Origin: Romanomermis culicivorax
Taxonomy: Eukaryota; Nematoda; Enoplea; Mermithida; Mermithidae
NCBI GenBank assembly: GCA_963922205.1
Contig: CAWUHX010000074.1
Location: 1,116,001-1,180,000, forward strand
DNA length: 64,000 nucleotides
Reading direction: 5' to 3'
Part shown: piece after piece, positions 13,011 through 61,560 of the stretch
Position numbering within the stretch: position 1 is the first letter of the stretch
Layout: each line of letters opens with the position of its first letter
The notes under the pieces: model-generated
What the model was told of the DNA's origin: nothing
Seen by the model: only the letters and a program-made list of their open reading frames with translations
The model's database searches: none
Made by a program: the position numbers and the translations under genes

Positions 13011-13486
13011 ACCGACCAACTCATTTAGAATTTTTCACTGCAACATGGACACATTTCATCACAGATTTGTCAAAAGAAAAGCTTTTCATAAAAGACTTAA
13101 TGCACCTGGAACTTTAAAATTTAAGGCTCAATTTTTACACTTATGAAACATTTTCAAAATTTGATTTGGCAGACTATGAAGAAGGAAGATGCTACTACAA
13201 CTGGACGATCACTTCTGCAACTTTGGCATGATATGTTCCATGCACATCAATAATCATTTCGCTATCAAGGCAAAATTCATACATCAGATAATAATACTAT
13301 GTGCTCGAGCAAAATGATATGTTGTCAACATGCTATCAAAAACGTTCTTCACCATGCATACTGTTTTGTTTATTCAGTTGATATTCATGGTGGAGCACAA
13401 AAGAGTAAACGCATCACTCCCTTAAGTGACATTAGAAGGGTTAGCGCATTCCAACACATTGCTCGAGTGATATTGCTCTTTTCGTC

Positions 13487-16146
<2,660 letters not shown>

Positions 16147-46317: not shown

Positions 46318-46824
46318 GGTAAAGTACGGATGACGGTGGCCACGCCGAAATGTCTCTGACGCCAGTTTTTGGGGGTTTTCATGATGACGGGAAGAAAGAA
46401 CAAGCGAAATTATGCATGGGAAAAGCGCCAAAGCGAAGTCATGGGAAAAAAATTGCATAATTATTATGCAGTGTGACACCGCCGTAGGGGTGGCCACTGC
46501 CATGACTAGCGAGTAGACGTTAATTTTTCCTTTAAAATTTTCCTTAGGCTTAGGCTTAGGGTACAGCAGCTGCGCCCCAAGGGCGCAGCGCTGTTGAGGC
46601 TCTTCCAAATGAAGTTGTTTAGTTAAAATAGTACCAAGGGTCTTAAAGGAATTCTCTCTAATTTTGAGACTGCATAATAATTATGCAAATTTTTTCCCAT
46701 AACTTCGCTTTGGCGCTTTTCCCATGCATAATTTCGCTTGTTCTTTCTTCCCTTCATCATGAAAACCCCCAAAAACCGGACTCAGAGACATTTCGGCGTG
46801 GCCACCGTCATCCGTAAAAACTCC
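46318..46824. mobile_element. MULE-like foldback element, 507 bp
   Basis: Two ~140-bp arms (about 46326-46465 and 46671-46817) are near-perfect reverse complements, containing CGGATGACGGTGGCCACGCC and AAGCGCCAAAGCGAAGT. They enclose a 200-bp spacer with the run TTAGGCTTAGGCTTAGGG. The insertion is flanked by AAAAATTTG on both sides, up to 9 bp, though the A-run makes the exact length uncertain. Long arms plus a ~9-bp duplication fit a Mutator-like element. No transposase is present. Confidence 0.75.
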
Positions 46825-47065: not shown

Positions 47066-48126
47066 CAGGGTTGGCAAAAACCCAGTTTTTGAAATCTTCA
47101 TTTTTGGGTTTTTGGGTTTTTGGGTGGGTTTTTCTGGGTTTTTCTGGGTTTTTCTGGGTTTTTGGTGGGTTTTTCTAGGGTTTTTGTTCCAGTTTTGTAC
47201 TAATGAATGATCATTTTACTTAAAATATATATGAGAATGTTATTTTTAACGTATTAAGTGTATTAAATTGCTGAACAGTGTTCAAGACTGACTATACATT
47301 TGGTTGTAACATATTTACACGAGTCACGCGACTGCACATTGCACAACGATTTTATCGATTTGGCTCATTAAAACGATTGGCTGTTTATTGAATTTTTTAT
47401 TGCATGATCTAAACACTAAAAATTGAAATGTCACTTTAAAAAATTGAAAATTACGGAAATCAAATTTCACGCATCGGCTTCGCTCACTTCATCAGATTCA
47501 CAGTCAGGGGAACTTTCTAGCAGCCCAAAGTTTGTCTTAACGAATACCAGTTTGCGCACTGTTTCCATCGACAATTGATTTCGCAGCTTGGAATGTATGA
47601 AGCCAAAGGTAGAGAAGTTTCTTTCCGAAGATGCAGTAGAGACAACGAGCGAAAAAACCTCAATTAATTTTTTATACATGTAATACATTGAAACAAATAA
47701 CATGTTATCTATGTGTACCTTCAGAGCGATTCGTTGCACCAGCGGCCAGTCAGCTCCATCTGTGAGCCAATACTCAAGGACAGACTTTTTCTTTTTGACG
47801 AGCATCTGGTCTGGTAGCGAAATGAGTTATTTTGTTTTTGTAATTTTGCCTCAATCATGTATTGCGTCAATTCTTGATACACAGCACTTTTTCGGTCAGC
47901 TAGTTCTGGATTTGCCACAGGGAAATTAACGATGAAATCCTCAATCTCGTTCTGGATTTGCCACAGGGAAATTAACGATGAAATCCTCAAATTAACGATG
48001 AAATCCTCATTTTAAAAGAATTAAGAAAAACCCAAAAACCCAAATTTTGTCAAAAAAATGCACCCAGAAAAACCCAGAAAAACCCAAAAACCCAAAAACC
48101 CAAAAACCCAGGTCTTGCCAACCCTG
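47066..48126 (-). mobile_element. hAT transposon relic with transposase fragment, perfect 8-bp duplication
   Basis: Starts CAGGGTTGGCAAAAACCC and ends CTTGCCAACCCTG. ATGCTCAG flanks both sides (47058-47065 and 48127-48134). Repeated GGGTTTTT blocks line both ends. It carries the 3' part of a transposase gene on the minus strand (47467-47990). It is 1,061 bp, far shorter than an autonomous hAT, so it is internally deleted. Confidence 0.95.
47467..47990 (-). pseudogene. hAT transposase, C-terminal fragment
   Basis: The last ~110 codons (47805-47467) contain the hAT dimerisation signature: YWLTDGADWPLVQRIALKVH, then ASSERNFSTFGFIHSKLR and a trailing KLVFVKTN. An upstream piece in another frame (47990 to about 47820, DFIVNFPVANPELADRKSAV) continues the same protein, so there is at least one frameshift. 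The catalytic DDE core is absent. A ~44-bp direct duplication (TCTGGATTTGCCACAGGGAA and following) lies at its 5' edge, near 47907-47995. It cannot encode an active enzyme. Confidence 0.9.
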
Positions 48127-48742: not shown

Positions 48743-49159
48743 AAATTCCCTGACCGCGCACTGAAAAAATTAAAAAAATTTATGAGATGTATTGAATTGA
48801 AGTAAGTACCGGAAAATTTTCAGTTATTCCATTTTATAATGCATAAAAAGTGCATGCATTTCCTCCGGACAGAAAACTGTATAATTTAATCAAAGACAAG
48901 TTGCAATATGCAATTTAGCAAGCAATTTGATTGCACAGCCCGAAATTTGGTTGCTGTGCGGAAAAAAAATGCTGGCAACCACGCGACGCAAACGATGGAA
49001 AAATTCGAGATTTTTGGTTTCAGCAACAGTAAACCGCATATATGTATGTTAAAAGGTACGCGCAAACACCTGTGCATCGATATGTATATTCAGCATCAGA
49101 GACCAGACCGGACGGAGAACGAGATGTACCCAATTCAGCGAAACGCAAAATAGCAAGAC
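48743..49159. other. Spacer before the LTR element
   Basis: No gene. Its last ~30 bp (ATTCAGCGAAACGCAAAATAGCAAGAC) resemble the units of the minisatellite resuming at 61422, the site the retrotransposon split. Confidence 0.5.
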
Positions 49160-49750
49160 TGTTGTGGAGCAATTTGACGTATTTGTAAAGCTCGTGTCGT
49201 TTGCGAAAAAGATCGGCAAGTTTGAATTGGAAAGATCCTGACGAGACCACCGAAGAGGCGTGGCTACAATGTGAAGAAATTATGAAAGTGTTTTTTCATT
49301 AGTTTGCGTTGTACTGTAGCCGAACGGTTGTGTTTTGGCGTTTTGTCTGAAAAGTGTGTGGCGGCTTTGTACATTAGTAAATTGTGTGAAAAGTCTGTTC
49401 TAAGTTGAGTCAAACTATTTGAAAAATAGTTTGAGTGAGTGAAACTCCTAAGCGGTTAAGATAATACGGCGCGGGTTTTCGGCATCCGAAAACCTTTGAC
49501 GACCTGAGCGAAGATCCCTGGATAAAATTGACACAGCGCTCTCTACGAGCCCGTCAATCTCCTGCGTTCGGCTATCGTTGCGTTATTTCCGTAAAACACT
49601 CCGAGTGTTTCGTCTACAGCGTTCCGCACGCTCTTCTACGTTCCGTACGTCTCTTCTAAAACGCGCGATAAATCGTCGAGCTACACAGCTAATTTCTCAT
49701 CTGCGTTCCGTCGTCTACGCTTCTATCATCTTATTTTCTCACGCACGACA
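49160..49750 (+). repeat. 5' LTR
   Basis: Begins TGTTGTGGAGC and ends CACGCACGACA. The same 591 bp recur at 60831-61421. It should hold the element's promoter and polyadenylation signals, but I could not assign a TATA box with confidence. Confidence 0.97.
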
Positions 49751-49753
49751 TAA

Positions 49754-49770
49754 TTTGGTGACCGTACCAG
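49754..49770 (+). other. Primer-binding site
   Basis: TTTGGTGACCGTACC begins five bases past the LTR; from TGG on it would pair with a tRNA 3' end that reads GGTCACCA. I did not assign the tRNA. Confidence 0.6.
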
Positions 49771-49825
49771 CTCGTCTAAAGGTTGAGGAAACGCCGAAAT
49801 TTGCGAAAAATCGAAAATCCGAAAA

Positions 49826-52800
49826 ATGGAAGAAAACCGCACGCGTCGCTCTACAGCGCTCGGTTACGAAAAAGGTTTCTATAAGAAACTAGCGAATCCC
49901 GATAATCTAGAAATCGAAAAAATCGATTGCGAAAACGCGAATCTACCGCTTCTCTACGAAGCAGATAAGCGTAATTTCGATCTACCAGAAACGTCCGCTC
50001 CGCTAAAAACGCGAAAAACCTCGCGATCTCTATCTCCGAAAATCGTCGAAAATCGAAAATTCAACTTTCTAAAACCGAAACCGAAGGATACCGATCCTCG
50101 AAAAATCTTCGATAATGACGCGTACATCGACGTAATGCAAAAATGCGATGCAGAAATGATAAATTTTCATGGCGACGCTACTAACGCGTTAAGCGAAATG
50201 GTCACAATAGGGACTCAGCATCGAAAAATTCTCGAAGACTACAAAGCCGAAATGGAAGCGATGCGAGCTCAGAAAGAAGAGCTATTGAAACCGAACATTC
50301 CTGAAATCGAAAATATCGCGAGACCTACGAGCTCTTACGCTCAGTCTCTAAAATCGACTAAACCGAAAAACGTCACTAGCAATCGAAAAAGTCAACTTAG
50401 TTTTCGTAGTATAATCGATGATGATGATGATCTAATCATCCCGACTCAAACGTTTGACCGCTCTAATGCGCTAAACGCGCTAAACTCTCAGATAAATTTT
50501 CCGTCTATCCCACCAACTCAGGTGCATAGATCTTTCGCCGATGACGACACGAGAATTAAAACTATCTGTAAAAAGATAGCGCCGCAAAAACTAGATAATT
50601 CGACCCGAAATCAACAAGTGTTGAAATTCTTCATTGCGCTCGAAAACGAGTTCGGCCTTGATGCGTCTGAATATGTGAAACTTCACACGTTGCGTCGCTT
50701 GACTTGCGATGGTGCCCTGAACACCATACGAGATGTCCGATCCTATGATGAAGGGAAACAGATTTTGATGTGTATGAATGCACCGAATTGCGACCAAGAT
50801 ACGCTCCAATGCGAGCTCCAGTCTATCGCTCCGTTTGAAACCGAAGATCCGTCAGCTTTCTTAAATCGAATCAGTACCTACGTACATCTACTGTACTATG
50901 ACAGAAGCGCTCAGTATCGCCATAGAAAAGTTATCACAACTTTTCTTTGGAAAATGCCGCAAATTTACAGAGTCTCGATTGATGCGAGTACTCTAGAAAC
51001 GATCACTGACTTAGCTATAGCCGTCGCGAAAGTTCAGAAAATCCAAAGAGCGAACAAACAGTCAATTGTCAGAGTAGAACAACCTATACTGGTTAACACA
51101 CTCGAAAATCGGTTGGAAGAGCAACCAGCTCAATCGCGTTTCAGAAATGATTCGAAACCTCGTTTCAGAGATAACTCTCAATCCCGAAACAGAGACGACT
51201 CTAGACAGCGAAATAGCGTGAGATTTCAAGAAAATTCGACTCTAACGAAAACGAAAGAATTGGAAGAAAGCATAAAACGAGTCCTAGAAAAGTTCGGAAT
51301 CCGAGAAAATTCGCAAAACGCAAACAATTTCGAAAATCGAAGATCGCGATTCGATCGCGGAACGAGTCCGAACTTTCGGAATAGAGAAAACATTCCTATA
51401 CGGGATTTCTCTCAGAATCGAAACTTCCAACGAAATCAGTCACGTGAACGACCCGTAAAATATTGCACCTATCATGGTCAATGTAAACACGACAGCTCCG
51501 AATGCTATCAATTGAAACCACAGGCTTCTCAGCCTCGGCAACAGCAACCGAATCATCAATGGCAAAATAACCATAATTGGCGTCCTCGTTTTCAACAAAA
51601 TACGCGTAACTACACGCTCAATCAGAATCAAAATTTTGACCGAAATAACCGATTCTTCAATCGTGATAATCGAAACTACCAGAGAGATGTTGCAAACATT
51701 TCTCTCTGCGATTCCGAATCCCGACAAGAAAAGATAATCGAAAAGCATTATTACTATCCGATGAACAACTCACAGTCTATACAGACTCAGCTAACTTCTC
51801 CGAAATCTTCGCAACAAGTTTTGCCATCAAAAACCAAAACGGTGTCCAACTCACCTACAACTTTCGTTCCGATGAAACCGACGACTAGTACAGCTAATAT
51901 GCTTGAACCGACAGAAGCTTCTAAAGCTACAAACTTTTTCGTCGCTCCGGGAATCACTGATTTCACAATCGAAAAACCTACTGAACCGTGGATTGCGAGA
52001 TCTAGTGTGTGTCGAATCGAAGAATGTTCGCAAAAAGATATCAAACTTCTGAGCTTATACGCTCCTACTCGTGCTTTTCATATCGATGCCGAAATCGGAA
52101 AAACCAAAACGAAAGCGTTAATCGATACCGGTGCTCAGTGTTCAGTCATTTCCTCATGTCTAGCTCAACGCTCTATGGGGATTGACTATGATACTTTGGA
52201 AACATCCGCGCAGATAAAAGTAGCGGACGGTGCTATCGTCGATGCCAGAGGTCCGATAATCTTCAAAATCAGTTCATCTTTCGGAACGCATCTAGTACGA
52301 TGCTGGATACTACCTACTACAGGAGAGCAATGCCTCCTAGGAACCGATTTCCTAGTGCATCCGAGCGTTCGAGCCATAATAAACTTTCGCGAAAATTTCA
52401 TCAGAATTGGAGACGTTCAACAAGAACTAAATCTAGTTTTGAAACCAATCGAAAAAGCGCCCTACGATGAAGTATTTTCAAATACTTCTACGGGACAAAG
52501 TCAAACACAAATGGTGAAAATCGACAGATCGCTACCGATTTTGAATATCTCGTCATGCTACGTAGAACCGAATTGTCAGACTTGGGTAAACGGAAAAGTC
52601 TTTCCTTTCACAAACGAAAGCTTCAAAAGCGTCATAGTTCAGCCCGTGAACTTCGGAAAAGAAAACTGCGAATATCTGATCGAACTTGCGATAATCAACA
52701 TAACTGAGGGCAAATGTCCACTATTATTCGTCAATAATAGTGCGAACGGTATCCACCTGCAACCTAACCAGCTCATCGCTGAGGTTAAATTCAAACTCGA

Positions 52801-55800
52801 AGAATCGAAAATGACCGTCGCGTCACTAAGCGATCATGAAGAAGACTATGAGCCAGCGACGTTGGTTAAAGATCAGTCAACTATGTCGGAAGAAGAAAAA
52901 CTTCAACTCGCTCTCGAAAAAATGACCGAAAAATCGAATATCGACGTTGAAGATAGAAAAATCGCTATCAAAGTCTTCAAGCAGTATCGTGATGTTTTCA
53001 GTCTCCCTGGAGATCAGCCTACTCTCACTCACGAGTTAACGGTCTCTATAGACACCGGTGATGCAAAACCAGTCGGGAAACACTACTATCGTGCGCCGAT
53101 TGAGCAAAGACCAATGGTTCGTCAGAAAATCCAAGAAATGCTAGAAAAAGGTCTCATAGAACCTTCGCAATCACCGTGGGCAGCACCTATGTTTCTGGTA
53201 ACCAAAAAAGATGGAAGTTGGCGACCCGTAGTCGATTATAGAGGTATAAATGAAGTAACTCCTAGCGATAAGTTTCCGATCCCGAGAATCGATGACTATC
53301 TAGATGCTTTAGGCAATGCAAGATTTTTCTCAACTCTAGACTTGAAAGCAGGGTACTGGCAAATCCCTTTAGACATCGCTTCACGCGATAAAACTACTTT
53401 CGTCAGTCAAGAAGGCTTATTTCGATTCAAAGTTCTACCTTTTGGTTTGAAAAACGCTCCCGCTGAATTTCAAAGATTAATGGAACGGATCCTGCATCCA
53501 TACATCTGGAAAATCTGTTTGGTCTATATTGACGATATCATAGTCTTTTCGCAAACGTATAACGATCATCTAGCACATATCCAACTGATCTTTGATGCTC
53601 TCCGTGACGCGAATCTAACGCTAAGACCTGATAAATGCGATTTCGTACCGAAACAAGTAAAATTTCTTGGTCACTTGCTAAGCGAAAATGGAATCTCGCC
53701 TGATCCCGAAAAGGTCTCCGCGATCGTAAACTATGAAATGCCAACAACAGTCAAAGATCTTCAAAGTTTTTTGGGCCTAGTCCAATGGTGTAGACGATTC
53801 ATACCGAATCTTGCCACTCTCTCGCGACCTCTCTATCAACTTCTACGAAAAAACGCGAAATATGAGATATGCGAAGAACATCGTACAGCATTTAACGAGA
53901 TTAAAACATCTCTAACCTCAACTCCTTTTTTGCGATATCCTGTCTATAACGACGAAAAATCGAAATTCATCATTCAAACTGATGCTAGCACAACTGCTAT
54001 CGGTGCGATTTTGTATCAAGAAAATGAAAATGATCAATGGGTCATCGCTTACAACAGTAGAGTTCTGTCTGACGTAGAAACCCGCTACAGTACGACTGAG
54101 CGCGAATGTCTAGCAATCGTAGAAGCTTTCCGTTGGTACAGATACTATGTCTATGGTCAAAAAGTAACGGTCAGAACTGATCATAAACCTTTGCAATGGA
54201 TTAAAGAAGAAAAACATCGAAATTCGCGACTTCAGAACTTCGCAATAAAACTACAAGATTACGACTATCGTGTTGAATATGTAAAAGGTAAAGAAAATGC
54301 TTGCGCTGATTTTCTATCACGAAATGAGCCTCGCGCTAAAGTAAAGCCAAAGACTAGCGAAGAAGTAACAAATGAAATATTCAGACCAACATTTCGCGAA
54401 GGGAAAAAGACTGTTGTAGCGGCCATAACAAGGTCAATGACGCAGAAAGAAGAAAGAAATAAAGTGCCGAAGTTCGAAGAAGATTTCCAACAGCCTGAGA
54501 AACGGCTAGTAACCATAGAATCACCGGAAGAAATCAGAGAAGCTCAAAGAAAAGACCCGTACATCGCGAAGTTGATAAAAGTTCTGGAACAAAACCAAAT
54601 CTCTACGATTTCATCTGCTTTTCATACCGAAAACGAGATAGTGTACCGAACATCAAAACAAGCTAACACAGCTTCCGCGATAGTAGTTCCAACTACTTTG
54701 ATAGAAAGTGTTCTGTATCAATTCCATGGAGCAAAGATTTTGAGCCATCAAGGTCATAGACGCACCACAGCAATGATTCGTCAGCATTTCTGGTGGCCGA
54801 AAATGGAAGAATCGATAATAAAGTGGATCAAAACATGCAAAACATGTCAACAAACAACTTCTCAGTTGCCTAAACCTCCTCCTTTGATGCCGATACAACC
54901 AAAATATCCATTTGAAATCGTCGCGACCGACATAGTAAACATATCCCCTCTGGGTGAGAAAAGATCATACGTCATCGTATTTCAAGACTACTTCACTAAG
55001 TGGGTAAGCGCTCATTTGATTCCGGATCAAAAAGCAGCCACTATAGTCGAAAGTTTCGTAAACAACGTAGTATTGGTTCATGGCAGCCCGAAACATCTTC
55101 TATCAGATCAGGGTTCAGGATTCACTTCAAACTTGATGAAAGACATCGCGAAACTTCTAAAAGTCCAGAAAATCAATACTACTGCGTATCACCCGCAATG
55201 TAATGGAATGGTAGAAAGATTCAATCAAACGCTGATTTCGCAACTCAAGAAATTCACCGCTGAAGACCCCGATAATTGGGAACGATATCTACCTTTCGCG
55301 ACTTTCGCCTATAACGCTGTTCCTCACACAGCTACTCACTTCTCTCCGTTTCGACTTTTGCGAGGGTATGAACCCAGAATCACTATAGATTTCAACTGCG
55401 CTAAAAGTCTAACGCTACCGCTAAACTACGATGCGTATCAGTACATCTTCACGCGAGCGCAACTAACGCTATATAACGAAGTTTCCGAAAACTTAAAAAA
55501 CGCGTCCGAATCGCATAAACGATACTTCGATAAGAAAGTGAAAGACCAAAAATACGATCTAAACGATCTCATACTGTTGCTTAACAATAAAAAAGCAACT
55601 AAAATCGATAAAGACTATATCGGACCCTTCGTAGTGGTCGAAAACTCCGAAATTTTGAAAAACGTCATAACTATCGATAGTTTAGATTGTCCCGGACAAT
55701 CTCAGAAAGTCTCACTTTCTCGCGTAAAGCCATACATGCCTCGCACGGCATTGGCAATCTTAGAAACGGAAGACAACGGTCCTCCAAAAATTTGTAAACA

Positions 55801-55804
55801 TTAA
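49826..55804 (+). CDS. Gag-Pol polyprotein, 1,992 codons, intact
   Basis: One open frame encodes capsid and enzymes with no stop or frameshift between them. The first ~600 residues are Gag-like: charged, Asn/Arg-rich around 430-600, with a Cys/His knuckle near 546 ([19 protein letters not shown]). Protease has LIDTGAQCS (Asp767). Reverse transcriptase has [29 protein letters not shown] and YIDD at 1234-1237. RNase H starts at TDAS (Asp1386) with the TERECLAIV motif. Integrase has an HHCC finger (His1634 to Cys1671/Cys1674) and a DDE triad at Asp1702, Asp1761 and Glu1797, with the canonical 35-residue spacing. Enzymes follow the Ty3/Gypsy order. All catalytic residues I checked are present, so it may be active. 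Gag and Pol share one frame, so the ratio cannot be set by frameshifting. Confidence 0.97.
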
Positions 55805-56294
55805 AATTAATATTTTTGATATATTTCAACTAACAATAATTTTTAATTTTGATAAATAAAGTCTAACTATTTAATAATTTTGAGCAAAGCGATGAGTACA
55901 AATTTTCGAATATTTAAAAACGCGCAAAACGCGCTCATACAGATTCTATGTGTAATGAATGAAAGGAATGTGTGTGATATTATTATGTGATTTTGTACTT
56001 ATTCACGTCCATTTCGAATAAATTGACCTTCCATAAGTAGTTGCGCAGAAGAAAGATTGAATAGAAAGCGCGCGCTGTAGGAAAATCTTCCTCTGGTCCC
56101 ACCCAATCTGAACTTTACACTTTTCGCCATGTGCATGAAAATTTAAATTCGTGGTTTAACAACTTTCCACTTTACACCTTCATCTTTTAGCAAGATAGTT
56201 TGGCTTAAATTTTTCATTTCGTTAAATTGAAACGATAGAGAACGGTCGCATCGAATTTGAAATTCTTCAAGATTAAAGTTGAAAGATAAAAGCG
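55805..56294 (+). other. Non-coding link between pol and the accessory genes
   Basis: About 490 bp with no gene. It contains AAATAAAGTC near 55854, a possible internal poly(A) signal, and may hold a promoter or splice acceptor for the downstream genes. I see no other feature. Confidence 0.45.
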
Positions 56295-59200
56295 ATGGCG
56301 AGTGAATCGGAGGCGACGACGTCGCAAGAATCGGCGATATCAACGTCGCTAATAAATCCGCCGCCGATATTTCGAAAAGCTTTTAACAATCAAGACCGAT
56401 ACGTGGCGTATCAGAAAAAGCAATACCGTCAAGACGACAGATTTTTCTTTGCTGATGGTAAGTTCTGCACTGCCATATAGACTAAAGTCTCTAAAAAGAA
56501 ACTCCGGGTTTCACTTCCCCTGGGAAGAATAAAGTATCGATCCATCGATAAGAAAATGGGAGTCGCGGTAACTTCGCTAGAAGATTTGCACGCCGCGATT
56601 CGAATGAGTGACGTTTCCATGCGAAACTAAATCTCACAGAAATTAATCGAAATTTTATGATATTTTTTAGAATACAATATCAAAAGAATGATCCGAATCA
56701 CGGAATTCGAACGTTGGTTCGAGACGGTATATGCGAGACCGCTCAACGTGCTACCCGACCCTCAATACGTTGAGAGCGGACAATTGAAAGGCGCCCTATC
56801 GGCATACGCAAAACCGAACTTCCGCGGCCATGTGCTAGTCGGATTCGACGTCGAAAAGATCTCGACTACTCAACTATACATACACAAGAAAACGAAGATG
56901 AATATAGTGAACCAGAACCCGACCCACGTCGCTCCGTTCGTCCAGCTGGGTTTTCCCACTGGATACACTATAATGTTCGACGCCTTAGCGGCGACACCCG
57001 AGGACTGGACGGCTTTCTACGAGTTCGTGTCGGCCCCTAAAACGATCGTAATCGGATTCGATCAAGCCGACGATTGGAAATGTCTCAAAGACATGCGCGG
57101 ACGAGAGTTTTACTCATCCGACGCTCGAAAAACGCACTCTAACGTGCTCGCGCCTAGTATACTGGTCGACGTCCAGATTATACTAGAAAATATCGAACGC
57201 TCACCCGAAAAGTGGGAAAGAGCTCGTCTGATCGGTTTGTGCCCCGAAAATAAAAAATTGAAAGGAATCGTCACCGACGCGTTCGCGCTAGACGTAGAAC
57301 GCTACACGTTGTATTTTCCGCAAGCGAACGATCGCATCGCCCAAGCAGGCAAACCCGACGATCAAGTTTTGACGTATTCGATTCTAGATGCGTACTATCC
57401 GATACTAATGTTTTTGGCGTACGGGCGCTACGGCTTCGTAGACAGCGTCTACGACAGCATTCAAATCTTCCCGCATGATTTCTTGCCGCCCGAATACATA
57501 CACATCGCTGCGCAAAACTTGTATGATAACACTAACATCGATCGCGAAGGCGATGAAAAGGGCGCTTTCGGTGTCGTAGATCCGACGCTCTCGAAGAGTA
57601 TGCTGCATGCGATCATGCGCGACGAAATCTTGGCGTTAAATCGAATCGTATACTACGACTATAACGTTCCGAACATGCGATACTGTACGTATAATCACGT
57701 AAACGTGGAGCACTCCACTAAACCGCTCGGATTGAAAATGCATCCGACAAAACTACCGACGATAAAAGGTAGCAAAAACAACACGTCTTCGTTGACCGAC
57801 GACGGAAAGATTGAACCGTATGACGACGCCGCTGAATGCGCGAGAGTAATTGAGCGAGCTTTACGCTCCAATGACGTAGTTAGCATCCATCACGAAGTCG
57901 GCGCACCTATGTCTTTGCTATTTCTTTCCGAAATAGACCAAAACATGGTGACAAGTGATGACGCGAAACAAATAAACTTCGAATTAATCGTAAACGATCC
58001 GTTCACCACCTACGGTCCTCCAGAAACGTGGCCTATCTACGAAATAAAATGCGACCATCAGATCGCCGAAAAGCCGGCTCTAACGCCGCTCTACTCAGTT
58101 CCGAACCATCATCAATGGATGAATGCTGTTCGCGGAACTATGCCGCTAGTCGCTCACGTCTGCTCCCCACACTCCGAAATGGAATTGCGAGCAATCCTCA
58201 AAAATGAGATCTCGAAACTGTTATCGAAAAGTGACAGTATCGACATAGATCTTATTTGCGAGCAAAATTGGGTGAAACGAGACGGCACGTTCGAATTCGA
58301 ACTAATGGAATGGACTAGTCGCTTGCCCTACAACGAAAAGAATCGCAGCGACAGTAAACGACCGATATATGTGAATCGATATTTTATGCGACAGATCATA
58401 TTCAAAAACGACTGTTTTCCAGTCTCTAACGAAACAGATCTCGTAACAAAAAAGAAGTATAGGGAAAACCCCTATTACTACTTTTCTTACAATTCGCCGA
58501 TTTTAATGTCGAGAAAATGCGAGCAACTCATTTGCTTTCCGCCGAGTCACACTCTAACAATGAGTTCGAACTTGCCCGTAATACCGACCGCCATATTGTC
58601 GGGAGAAAGTCCCACAAAAACGCCTACACAGGCTCCTACACAATCCACCGCGGATACCGAATTCGATGCGGAAACGGCGATGGCCGTCGATTCGTTGCTC
58701 AAACAAACCGCCGAAGAATCGTTCGCGGTAAAAACAGAACTACCATCCGAATCCGACGTCATACAACTCGAAAGCGAAGAAGAAGACGTATCCACAGCTG
58801 ATACTACTGCACCTGTAACGACGACTAAAACAACGTCCTCGTTCACTCCGCTATCCAAAAACTTGTCGAGCAGTACATTCGAATTGGAATCGGAAGAAAT
58901 AAAGAAACGAAACATACAAGAGGTAGCCGCGTTGGTAAAAACCTCATCGATGTACGATGTTTCGCGTATGGAAGAGGAAGAAGAAGACGAAACGAAAATG
59001 GTACCTCCAAAAATCATACCTACGCGATATCGGATACCGAAGAAAAACGAGGAAGACACCTCTACCCCGATAAGTACCGAAACCGCCACTCCAGTTTTGG
59101 AGGTGAAAGACGACCGATTGTGCGATGAACACAGCGTACCCATTCGCAATGTCAGAGCGTATCAGTTTTCATTGTTTCGCAGACGAAATGCCATCGATAA

Positions 59201-59543
59201 ACAGCTGCGCACAATACAGGATTATCTGGACACACACCCAGAAGATCCTAATTACGTGCCTCCATCCAAAAAACGCCGCGAATCACGAGAAGATACTCGT
59301 AGTAGAGAACGAAAACAAACCGAATCACAATCACGAGAACGACCCTCGCGGTCTACTGCTCGCAAAGAAAGCGACGATTATGACAGTCGAAAATATCGGC
59401 ATGGTGAATACGCGTCGAACGAGCGTCCTAGAAAATTTCACCGAGATCGCGATTATAGACGAGAACATCCTAGCGAATCAAAAGATCGACAAAAAAGAAT
59501 TGAATGGGCTAGCGCCTTGAAACGCGATCAATTGAAAAAATAA
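56295..59543 (+). CDS. Accessory gene with RNase D-like DEDDy 3'-5' exonuclease domain, one intron
   Basis: The main frame opens at 56688 (951 codons). An upstream exon 56295-56457 joins it in frame: donor GATG/GTAAGT, acceptor TATTTTTTAG at 56670, intron 213 nt, together 1,011 codons. In 56688-based numbering, residues 48-240 match RNase D/WRN-type exonucleases: motif I VLVGFDVE (Asp54, Glu56), motif [14 protein letters not shown] (Asp129), motif [13 protein letters not shown] (Tyr230, Asp234). All five DEDDy residues are present. The middle (about 250-640) is unrecognised. The tail is acidic and Ser/Thr-rich (about 640-830), then Arg/Ser-rich with [12 protein letters not shown], a likely nuclear signal and RNA-binding tail. 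No signal peptide or membrane span is seen, so it is not an envelope. Domain call by motif; no alignment was run. Confidence 0.8.
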
Positions 59544-59585
59544 CAGTTAGAGAGCCAACAGCCTCTGACGGCTGGCTCCAAACCA

Positions 59586-60554
59586 ATGATCGACGAACCA
59601 ACAACGTCGCAGCAAGCAGAAGCGGCTAGCGAACAACAAAAGTCGCAAAGAACCGTCCGAGAATACAAAGTTGCGCATCGACGACATGGTAGACAGCGTA
59701 CACCGCCGGAAGAACGGTACCCTAGCGTACCTACAGCACCTATTACGGCTCAAATCCAACCGAGAACGACCGATGACGTAATTATCATTAATTACTTCAA
59801 TCGTGCTCATTTGGATTTCGATCCCGTAATTTTACGTCAAGCCACCGCGGCTTCGCAACAAATAGCGCAGGATTTTCCTGACTATTTTCAAGCGCAATAT
59901 TTGCGACGAGATCCACATTGCACAGAAGAACTCACTGCAGTTCTTCTAAGTTGGATGTGCGATTACTATAAGTACTACGGCGCTGAAAACGCAATCGTGA
60001 TAACACAGCTCACGCTGTTCCTCTTCCACGCCAGACAAGCCTACAACTACAAAACTACCGATAATTCGTATTCGATGGCTCTACGCTACATCTTGCAATG
60101 TCTCACCGACACGCGAGCCCCGAACTATCCGGCAACTGAAGAAAGAAAGAGTATCATTCGAGATATACATCGCGAGTATCAAATCGAAATGGACAAGCGA
60201 GCCGAAGAAAAGAAAAAGAAAGACGCCCAAGCCATGGCAAAAGCGGCCGTACCACCAAAGTACCAAATGACACCGGCTCCGATCATCACTATGGCCACGA
60301 CAGTGACAACTCAACCGTCGATGGTTGGAGTGAGAACCTCGCTTGGAGCCGCGCAGCGAGCTTTGGCCCCGCGAGCACCGACCACGAGTCAATCGATACA
60401 GATGCCCCCGCCGGGTATTCTGAAAGCGAGCAAAACCCCGGTCAAAGTTTTGCCTAAAGGTCGCGGATTTCCGCCGAAATGGGTCAAAATGGATAAGTAT
60501 CACGATGCTAACGCATCTCATTTCCTTTCACTAGTTTATTCTTTTTTCCATTAG
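59586..60554 (+). CDS. Second accessory protein of the retrotransposon, 322 codons, unknown function
   Basis: The frame starts 42 nt after the exonuclease gene stops and ends 276 nt before the polypurine tract. No family is recognised. It has a polar N-terminus (Gln/Ala-rich, then RHGRQRTPPEER), a globular-looking middle (about 65-195, with FPDYFQAQYLRRD and LSWMCDYYKYYGAENAIVI), a charged helix (EMDKRAEEKKKKDAQAMAK) and a Pro/Thr/Ala-rich basic tail. There is no signal peptide, membrane span or zinc knuckle. Codon use resembles gag-pol, so it is part of the element. How it would be translated (own mRNA, reinitiation) is unknown. Confidence 0.75.
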   Translation: MIDEPTTSQQAEAASEQQKSQRTVREYKVAHRRHGRQRTPPEERYPSVPTAPITAQIQPRTTDDVIIINYFNRAHLDFDPVILRQATAASQQIAQDFPDYFQAQYLRRDPHCTEELTAVLLSWMCDYYKYYGAENAIVITQLTLFLFHARQAYNYKTTDNSYSMALRYILQCLTDTRAPNYPATEERKSIIRDIHREYQIEMDKRAEEKKKKDAQAMAKAAVPPKYQMTPAPIITMATTVTTQPSMVGVRTSLGAAQRALAPRAPTTSQSIQMPPPGILKASKTPVKVLPKGRGFPPKWVKMDKYHDANASHFLSLVYSFFH

Positions 60555-60817
60555 AATCTTTTCTTTGAAATCTCTAAAAATTTTAAATTTCTCGGTGCTA
60601 AATACTAGTTTTCATTTGCTGATCACTTTGTGCCGTAACATTTTTTGTGATAACATCGTTTAAATTTTCTTTGTTTGTGTAGTATGTGCCGCAGAGTAGA
60701 GAAACGAGAATGACGAATCGTCGAAAGAAACTTGCCCAAAACGAGCTAAACGCTCTCATTCGATCAATACGCAAATTCACCACGATACGTCGAAATCGCT
60801 TGAGGCGATTTAGATCG

Positions 60818-60830
60818 AAAGGGGGAGGAG
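60818..60830 (+). other. Polypurine tract
   Basis: AAAGGGGGAGGAG lies directly before the 3' LTR, the expected primer for plus-strand synthesis. Confidence 0.9.
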
Positions 60831-61421
60831 TGTTGTGGAGCAATTTGACGTATTTGTAAAGCTCGTGTCGTTTGCGAAAAAGATCGGCAAGTTTGAATTG
60901 GAAAGATCGTGACGAGACCACCGAAGAGGTGTGGCTACAATGTGAAGAAATTATGAAAGTGTTTTTTCATTAGTTTGCGTTGTACTGTAGCCAAACGGTT
61001 GTGTTTTGGCGTTTTGTCTGAAAAGTGTGTGGCGGCTTTGTACAGTAGTAAATTGTGTGAAAAGTCTGTTCTAAGTTGAGTCAAACTATTTGAAAAATAG
61101 TTTGAGTGAGTGAAACTCCTAAGCGGTTAAGATAATACGGCGCGGGTTTTCGGCATCCGAAAACCTTTGACGACCTGAGCGAAGATCCCTGGATAAAATT
61201 GACACAGCGCTCTCTACGAGCCTGTCAATCTCCTGCGTTCGGCTATCGTTGCGTTATTTCCGTAAAACACTCCGAGTGTTTCGTCTACAGCGTTCCGCAC
61301 GCTCTTCTACGTTCCGTACGTCTCTTCTAAAACGCGCGATAAATCGTCGAGCTACACAGCTAATTTCTCATCTGCGTTCCGTCGTCTACGCTTCTATCAT
61401 CTTATTTTCTCACGCACGACA
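60831..61421 (+). repeat. 3' LTR
   Basis: 591 bp, same length as the 5' LTR, with five substitutions relative to it. It ends CACGCACGACA and is followed by AGAC, which duplicates the four bases before the 5' LTR. Confidence 0.97.
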
Positions 61422-61560
61422 AGACTAAACAGCGAAGTCCCAAAACAGCGATGCCTCAAAACAGTGATTCTCAATACAGCAAGTCTCAATACAGCGAGGT
61501 GTCAATACAGCGATTCTCAAAACAGCGAAATCTCAGAACAGATTCTCAAAATTGCGAATT
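61422..61560. repeat. ~15-bp minisatellite, split by the retrotransposon
   Basis: About eight units like CAAAACAGCGATTCT or CAATACAGCGAGGTCT follow the 3' LTR. One or two more units precede the 5' LTR (49129-49159), so the insertion occurred within this array. Confidence 0.8.

Follow-up and report, generated by a model that had tools for sequence, protein, structure and literature searches.

A multi-copy Ty3/Gypsy retrotransposon of Romanomermis culicivorax with a probable DEDDy exonuclease-family domain in its third gene

The third gene of a long terminal repeat (LTR) retrotransposon is usually regarded as an envelope gene. The locus considered here lies in a stretch of 64,000 nucleotides (nt) from the nematode Romanomermis culicivorax (contig CAWUHX010000074.1, positions 1,116,001 to 1,180,000), hereafter the window, in whose own numbering all positions are given. 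A Ty3/Gypsy element in the window carries, downstream of gag-pol, an additional open reading frame (ORF), ORF3, and a first-pass annotation had read its product as a DEDDy exonuclease. We find that the presence of a DEDDy exonuclease-family domain in this Gypsy element is supported by homology through a second gene family of the same genome (family B), by the invariance of the five characteristic residues in 30 of 30 copies, and by signs of purifying selection.

The element appears complete and occupies positions 49160-61421 of the + strand, on which all of its features lie. It is bounded by a 5' LTR (49160..49750) and a 3' LTR (60831..61421), each of 591 nt and running from TG to CA, which differ at 5 of 591 nt; copies of the target-site duplication AGAC adjoin the 5' LTR on the left (49156..49159) and the 3' LTR on the right (61422..61425). 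Read from the sequence, a putative TGG primer-binding site, TGGTGACCGTACCAGC (49756..49771), lies 5 nt past the 5' LTR, and a polypurine tract, AAAGGGGGAGGAG (60818..60830), directly precedes the 3' LTR. A single gag-pol ORF of 1992 amino acids (aa) extends from an ATG at 49826 to a stop at 55804 (49826..55804) and encodes, in Gypsy order, an aspartic protease (PR), a reverse transcriptase (RT, with the motif YIDD), RNase H (RH), H2C2 and a DDE integrase (IN, rve). The LTRs, the short target duplication and the PR-RT-RH-IN order thus place the element in Ty3/Gypsy, and ORF3 is indeed located, as had been claimed, between an intact gag-pol and the 3' LTR. The closest proteins to pol (best 120 of 683 matches in a set of 5.8 billion proteins) are Gypsy-type polyproteins with 29-44% identity over the matched stretch, and PF01612, the Pfam family of DEDDy 3'-5' exonucleases, was found in none of these 120. 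Over the RT region identity to relatives reaches 52%; a pol relative from Adineta ricciae (P0099) is 42.5% identical there.

In ORF3 the motifs GFDVE, DDWKCL and YSILDAY occur in the expected order within an N-terminal exonuclease-like domain at 56811..57470, whose limits are approximate and taken from alignments. Numbered on the predicted spliced protein, motif I comprises D114 and E116 of GFDVE (56847..56855; codons at 56847 and 56853), the motif II aspartate is D188 or D189 of DDWKCL (57069..57074; D188 codon at 57069), and motif III comprises Y290 and D294 of YSILD (57375..57389; codons at 57375 and 57387). In a MAFFT alignment with 12 WRN-like proteins the five residues fall in invariant columns at 18-23% identity; motifs II and III are farther apart in the element domain. 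With D188 taken as motif II, none of the five residues varies among the 30 copies of the element compared (D185 and D189 are D in 29 of 30). The DEDDy set and its order, as described in the first-pass annotation, are confirmed.

The assignment was decided by other genes of the same genome. PF01612 has 91 matches, all over the cut-off, in the full assembly of 359 Mb in 595 contigs, and from these we took the ten best (L033-L042), four longer stretches (L043-L046) and five more loci (L047-L051); the remainder may include host genes. Family B (L047-L050) matches the window ORF3 by tblastn at 8e-9 to 3e-11, in targets of 1.3-1.5 kb. Its member L047 aligns colinearly with the window domain (BLASTP 2e-10, 22% identity over 238 aa) with the motifs in register, save that its motif II aspartate is paired with the second D of DDWK, and it has a short pol-end match just upstream of its ORF (E 8.7e-4). 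PF01612 matches L047 (1.5e-7) and L050 (4.5e-7) over the cut-off and the fragments L048 (3.1e-4) and L049 (0.12) under it. Moreover, a profile of the window domain with L047, L050 and L048, compared with a profile of 13 WRN-like proteins plus RNase D, gave a probability of 54 and an E value of 1.3e-4. Because family B matches both the window domain and PF01612, the ORF3 domain almost certainly belongs to the DEDDy family, as far as sequence comparison can tell. The Pfam search that the first-pass annotation had suggested as a check therefore succeeded only by this intermediate and not by a direct match.

Family A (L033-L046) typically has an ORF3 close to 608 aa in length (range 292-614 across the nine loci read), located at the same place in the element as the window ORF3, and the two members tested match PF01612 at 1.4e-10 and 2.8e-10; its best matches among PDB sequences are 3cym, an uncharacterised RNase D-like protein (0.0029), and WRN (0.0062). 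Frames upstream of its ORF3 match the window integrase region at 27-39% in eight loci. In L043 the DEDDy frame follows a frame of 1155 aa that matches RNase H and, slightly below the cut-off, H2C2, and in which the RT and integrase cores were not matched. LTR-like direct repeats were found in L043 (469 nt, 100%) and L044 (391 nt, 100%), both truncated where the sequence read ends, in L046 (625 nt, 97.6%) and in L045 (138 nt, 96%); the identity of the L043 repeats over 469 nt suggests that family A was probably active recently. Judged from these features, family A is Gypsy-like, separate from the window family, and has an ORF3 of the PF01612 type; L051 is 74% identical to it. Other DEDDy ORF3 families of this genome thus reside in Gypsy-like elements, clearly in one case and probably in the other. 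With BLOSUM45, the score of the window domain against family A was reached by 0 of 5000 shuffles, and by 0 (L042), 19 (L033) and 2 (L039) of 4000 against single members; with BLOSUM62 the same three comparisons gave 184, 2857 and 146 of 4000. Single-sequence hhalign of the window domain against family A was not significant, one pol piece scoring higher, and a mixed MAFFT alignment with family A left the motif I residues out of register.

Selection on ORF3 was assessed in the 30 best protein matches, the window copy included, of 48 copies scored from 5429 candidates. Pooled pairwise nonsynonymous divergence (dN) is 0.0073 and synonymous divergence (dS) 0.083, giving a dN/dS of 0.09 (codon bootstrap 0.06-0.11), and the exonuclease-like domain has the same ratio (0.04-0.17). 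Variants common to at least 3 copies comprise 92 synonymous and 15 replacing changes, as against 120 synonymous and 106 others, 7 of them stops, among private variants (Fisher 2.5e-9); the test disregards 54 sites whose rarer state is found in two copies, 21 that have three or more states and 11 that defied classification. In the domain alone the synonymous to replacing counts are 19:2 for shared and 21:23 for private variants (9.4e-4), and in the continuation past codon 961, available in 26 of 30 copies, they are 30:4 and 49:28 (0.012), so that the excess of synonymous shared variants spans the domain, the middle and the tail. Since the five residues are invariant and shared variants are mostly synonymous, ORF3 appears to be under purifying selection.

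The gene structure required some correction. The first-pass annotation had a single uninterrupted frame at 56295..59543: its start holds, and within it we predict exon 1 (56295..56457, 163 nt, from the ATG), a GT-AG intron of 213 nt (56458..56670; 213-215 nt across copies) and exon 2 (56671..59543). The ATG, the length of exon 1, the donor and the acceptor are kept in 30 of 30 copies, as is the predicted intron itself, and exon 1 is stop-free in every one. The stop that ends exon 2 (59541-59543) is not a feature of the family, being private to the window copy among the 30. Beyond 59543 the reading frame stays open for 313 codons in 25 of 30 copies and ends inside a frame (59544..60554) that is separate in the window copy and has no known domain; hence the family protein would be about 1,320 residues long and the downstream ORF of the window would be the C-terminal part of ORF3. 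Stops within the 960-codon ORF3 frame occur in 14 of the 48 scored copies. By composition, the stretch at 59250..59540 is a basic tail rich in R, E and S, with a nuclear-localisation-like KKRR at 59268. Hydropathy gave no transmembrane segment (highest 19-residue mean 1.31 in ORF3 and 0.99 in the downstream frame).

As a side observation, the private stop is followed by CAGTTA, a case of the context CARYYA, which reportedly acts in tobacco mosaic virus and which is rare in the window, following 6 of its 3479 stop triplets. Readthrough by this context was considered and rejected, since the stop is present in the window copy only, and with 29 of 30 copies lacking it the context is taken as a coincidence; folding of the RNA downstream of the stop is unremarkable (z -1.93), and no literature linking CARYYA readthrough with retrotransposons was found. 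Homology between the downstream frame and the tail of family A was also considered, the two being alike by eye, but 1083 of 5000 shuffles equal the score.

Several results weigh against, or qualify, the interpretation of ORF3 as a selected DEDDy-family gene, and they concern first the domain itself. No direct exonuclease match was obtained for it in Pfam (E up to 10), NCBIfam, PHROGs or PDB sequences, one PHROG of unknown function matching at E 0.061, and single-sequence hhalign did not rise above shuffles. On a mixed profile of WRN, EXD2 and RNase D types the domain scored higher than all 4000 shuffles and all 2837 windows of real proteins, whichever of three gap settings was used (semi-global), and on a WRN plus EXD2 profile its score was reached by 0-5 of 4000 shuffles and 0-10 of 2837 windows. 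With the catalytic columns masked, however, it was reached by 40-137 of 4000 shuffles and 163-373 of 2797 windows, so that the case from the domain by itself rested on the motifs; masking of the catalytic residues likewise raised the BLOSUM45 counts for L042, L033 and L039 to 43, 3322 and 229 of 4000. The score was also reached by 5 of 2000 shuffles and 44 of 2797 windows on a WRN-only profile, by 364 of 2000 shuffles on one of RNase D type only and by 248 of 2000 on EXD2 plus RNase D type, and the two profiles of RNase D type without WRN gave z values of 0.9 and 1.2; the domain, compared in this way, resembles WRN-type rather than RNase D-type profiles. With a four-block position-specific scoring matrix, 0 of 2000 shuffles reached the observed score in a first run; later 5 of 40000 did so, as did 1 of 157 windows from E. 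coli and 2 of 4023 from retroelements. The motif II aspartate is uncertain: alignment with WRN-like proteins in MAFFT points to D188, the first D of DDWK, alignments with family B to D189, the second, and the profile alignment to D185, the D of GFDQ. A fold predicted from the single sequence, with no alignment, had a mean pLDDT of 29.7 and is meaningless. No relatives of ORF3 (residues 1-320) were found among 1608 candidates from the 5.8 billion proteins, nor any of ORF3 in the viral contigs, genome contigs and phages searched, and a search of viral contigs with the pol alignment found no relatives.

On the same side stand some properties of the copies. A sample made of best protein matches biases dN downward, and replacements are scarce even among private variants. 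Divergence is lower in noncoding parts (0.015-0.020) than at the 4-fold sites of ORF3 (0.052, or 0.046 away from CpG), so that a dN/dS computed from dS may overstate the constraint; set against noncoding divergence, the dN of 0.0073 gives a ratio of 0.37-0.47. Exon 1 offers too few two-state variants (16 in all, of which 12 are synonymous and 4 replacing) to bear out its predicted coding status, and its divergence among copies (0.0183) is as high as that of its noncoding neighbours. Apart from its bearing on ORF3, the low noncoding divergence in the copies (L003-L032; region 55805-56294 and the intron) suggests either noncoding constraint or faster synonymous change.

The first-pass annotation had also reasoned that copies lacking the ORF would tell against it, and this objection applies in part. 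The end of pol lies 857-886 nt upstream of ORF3 in 47 of the 48 scored copies, by a comparison that used 59 of 150 pol places. Six pol places for which no ORF3 had been listed were inspected where the gene should lie: two (pol 97% and 96% identical) carry ORF3 with all five residues, and the other four (pol 84-90% identical) have none, which again counts against our interpretation. In three of the four, gag-pol frames of 2008-2009 aa are stop-free in the matched part. All four have, at the place of ORF3, LTR sequence 88-92% identical to the window 3' LTR (153 nt only in C237), which begins some 740-770 nt past pol; the spacer between is unrelated to the window, homology resuming at 60794. In these elements (L058-L061) the spacer contains tandem units like GGTCATCARAATAAAGACTCT. 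Its length, close to that of the two flanks of ORF3 combined, suggested an empty site, but this reading was rejected, since the joined flanks match the spacer at 47-48% (left) and 52-61% (right) identity. The absence from four of six extra pol places indicates that ORF3 is an optional cassette. The elements without it belong to a close, diverged subfamily, and gain in one subfamily and loss in the other are both possible.

Taken together, the locus is very probably best explained as a multi-copy Ty3/Gypsy element with a DEDDy-homologous third gene under selection, whose product would have an auxiliary nuclear role on RNA. ORF3 has stayed intact in many copies and is therefore probably of use to the element. 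Its protein would be made from a spliced mRNA of two predicted exons, and reverse transcription would act on the intron-containing RNA, as the intron is present in each of the 30 copies. The lack of a transmembrane segment, together with the basic R/E/S-rich tail and KKRR, suggests a nuclear RNA-associated accessory protein rather than an envelope. It may bind, and probably trim, RNA 3' ends, either of the element's own transcripts or of host small RNAs that silence it. Its invariant catalytic residues argue for an enzyme, and we consider the domain probably active in catalysis. Because the subfamily without ORF3 has open gag-pol frames, an auxiliary function (escape from silencing, RNA stability or export) is more likely than a step required for cDNA synthesis or integration. 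The RNA-level auxiliary role, considered alone, is a tentative proposal that we hold at slightly less than even confidence, and counter-silencing in particular seems unlikely to be the specific function.

Among other explanations, the one that survives best, although we think it improbable, is that ORF3 is a nuclear RNA-binding export factor which uses the exonuclease fold for binding. It would then act like CERV, the spliced nuclear protein of the Gypsy element Cer1 of C. elegans, which is needed for export of the unspliced genomic RNA (PMC10309623). Both elements have a third protein at the env position, made from a spliced mRNA (by prediction in our case), and no env; the intron kept in 30 of 30 copies, KKRR, the basic tail and the absence of a membrane segment by hydropathy agree with such a function. 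CERV, however, is described with H, M and pseudo-GTPase-like G domains and a Cys loop, and no exonuclease figures in that description (PMC10309623), whereas ORF3 has no Cys/His cluster by simple pattern and keeps its catalytic residues in 30 of 30 copies, which is unexpected for binding alone. The primer sites differ as well, being TGGGGGCCG (tRNA-Pro) in Cer1 as against TGGTGACCG after the 5' LTR of the window element.

A role in cDNA or primer processing, in which ORF3 would trim 3' ends of the reverse transcript or remove the tRNA primer before integration, appears somewhat less likely still. DEDDy enzymes act on 3' ends of RNA and of single-stranded DNA (PMC5408684), and in Dada DNA transposons, elements of two species carry a DEDDy domain inside the transposase that is thought by the authors to process cleaved ends (PMC3706591). 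Dada resembles our case as a mobile element with a DEDDy domain and differs in being a DNA transposon. Against this role, ORF3 is missing from three related elements whose gag-pol frames, of 2008-2009 aa, are free of stops in the matched part, so that these steps seem independent of it, and ORF3 lies outside the gag-pol frame. That ORF3 is a captured host gene carried as a passenger, without function for the element, is very improbable: its optional presence and its absence from the close subfamily would fit, but shared variants are in synonymous excess across domain, middle and tail, codon use follows gag and pol (r 0.81 and 0.80) rather than one short serpin exon (0.53), and further DEDDy ORF3 families occur in Gypsy-like elements of the genome. 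A chance match of motifs in a protein outside the DEDDy family, which the missing direct profile match and the weak similarity of the non-catalytic part might suggest, is hardly credible given the family B link and the profile-profile comparison.

The selected DEDDy-family gene preferred here has a precedent, correctly named by the first-pass annotation, in the Juno and Vesta LTR retrotransposons of bdelloid rotifers, whose ORF3 is of DEDDy type (PMC5408684). It is present there in some families and not in others, and was acquired at least twice; the authors mention 3'-end processing and silencing-related roles, with activity yet to be demonstrated (PMC5408684). The window ORF3 is thus a variant of an association already known, alike in its optional distribution. 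By the published description, the bdelloid motif is changed to DEED, whereas the window ORF3 has D, E, D and D plus Y; full-length bdelloid copies are called scarce, whereas 48 copies were scored here, with a predicted spliced ORF3. DEDDy ORFs are also carried by the Terminons and Athena elements (PMC5408684, PMC6431247), which differ in retroelement class, having a Penelope-like RT. WRN, EXD2, Mut-7 and RNase D share the motifs and their order but are cellular proteins. No report of a DEDDy gene in another Gypsy lineage was among the literature matches listed, which left subscription literature mostly uncovered.

The element therefore adds, to the published bdelloid cases, high-copy elements with a predicted spliced gene, and it shows that the Gypsy-type elements of a single genome include at least two diverged groups with DEDDy genes. 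A broader scheme, which we regard as doubtful, is that several diverged Gypsy-type groups (two shown, a third probable) exchange a DEDDy third-gene cassette in place of env, acting on RNA 3' ends for escape from silencing or for handling of genomic RNA. A selected exonuclease-family gene that is missing from a close subfamily offers a natural comparison, with and without, of the benefit of such an enzyme, and makes the use of an exonuclease by a retroelement, against small-RNA silencing or on its own RNA, a testable matter.

Elsewhere the window includes genes for a serpin and an FF-domain protein. Pieces of the serpin gene lie at 13445-15681, around a long tandem repeat (14507-15230) whose reverse frames read (SINQ)n. 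A reverse transcriptase fragment at 1812-2273 (RVT_1, 6.5e-16) was judged by eye to be of non-LTR type. An inverted repeat at 46325-46816 has arms of 148 nt, 96% complementary and 196 nt apart, and a fragment of a hAT transposase dimerisation domain lies on the - strand at 47467-47826 (Pfam 1.5e-10).

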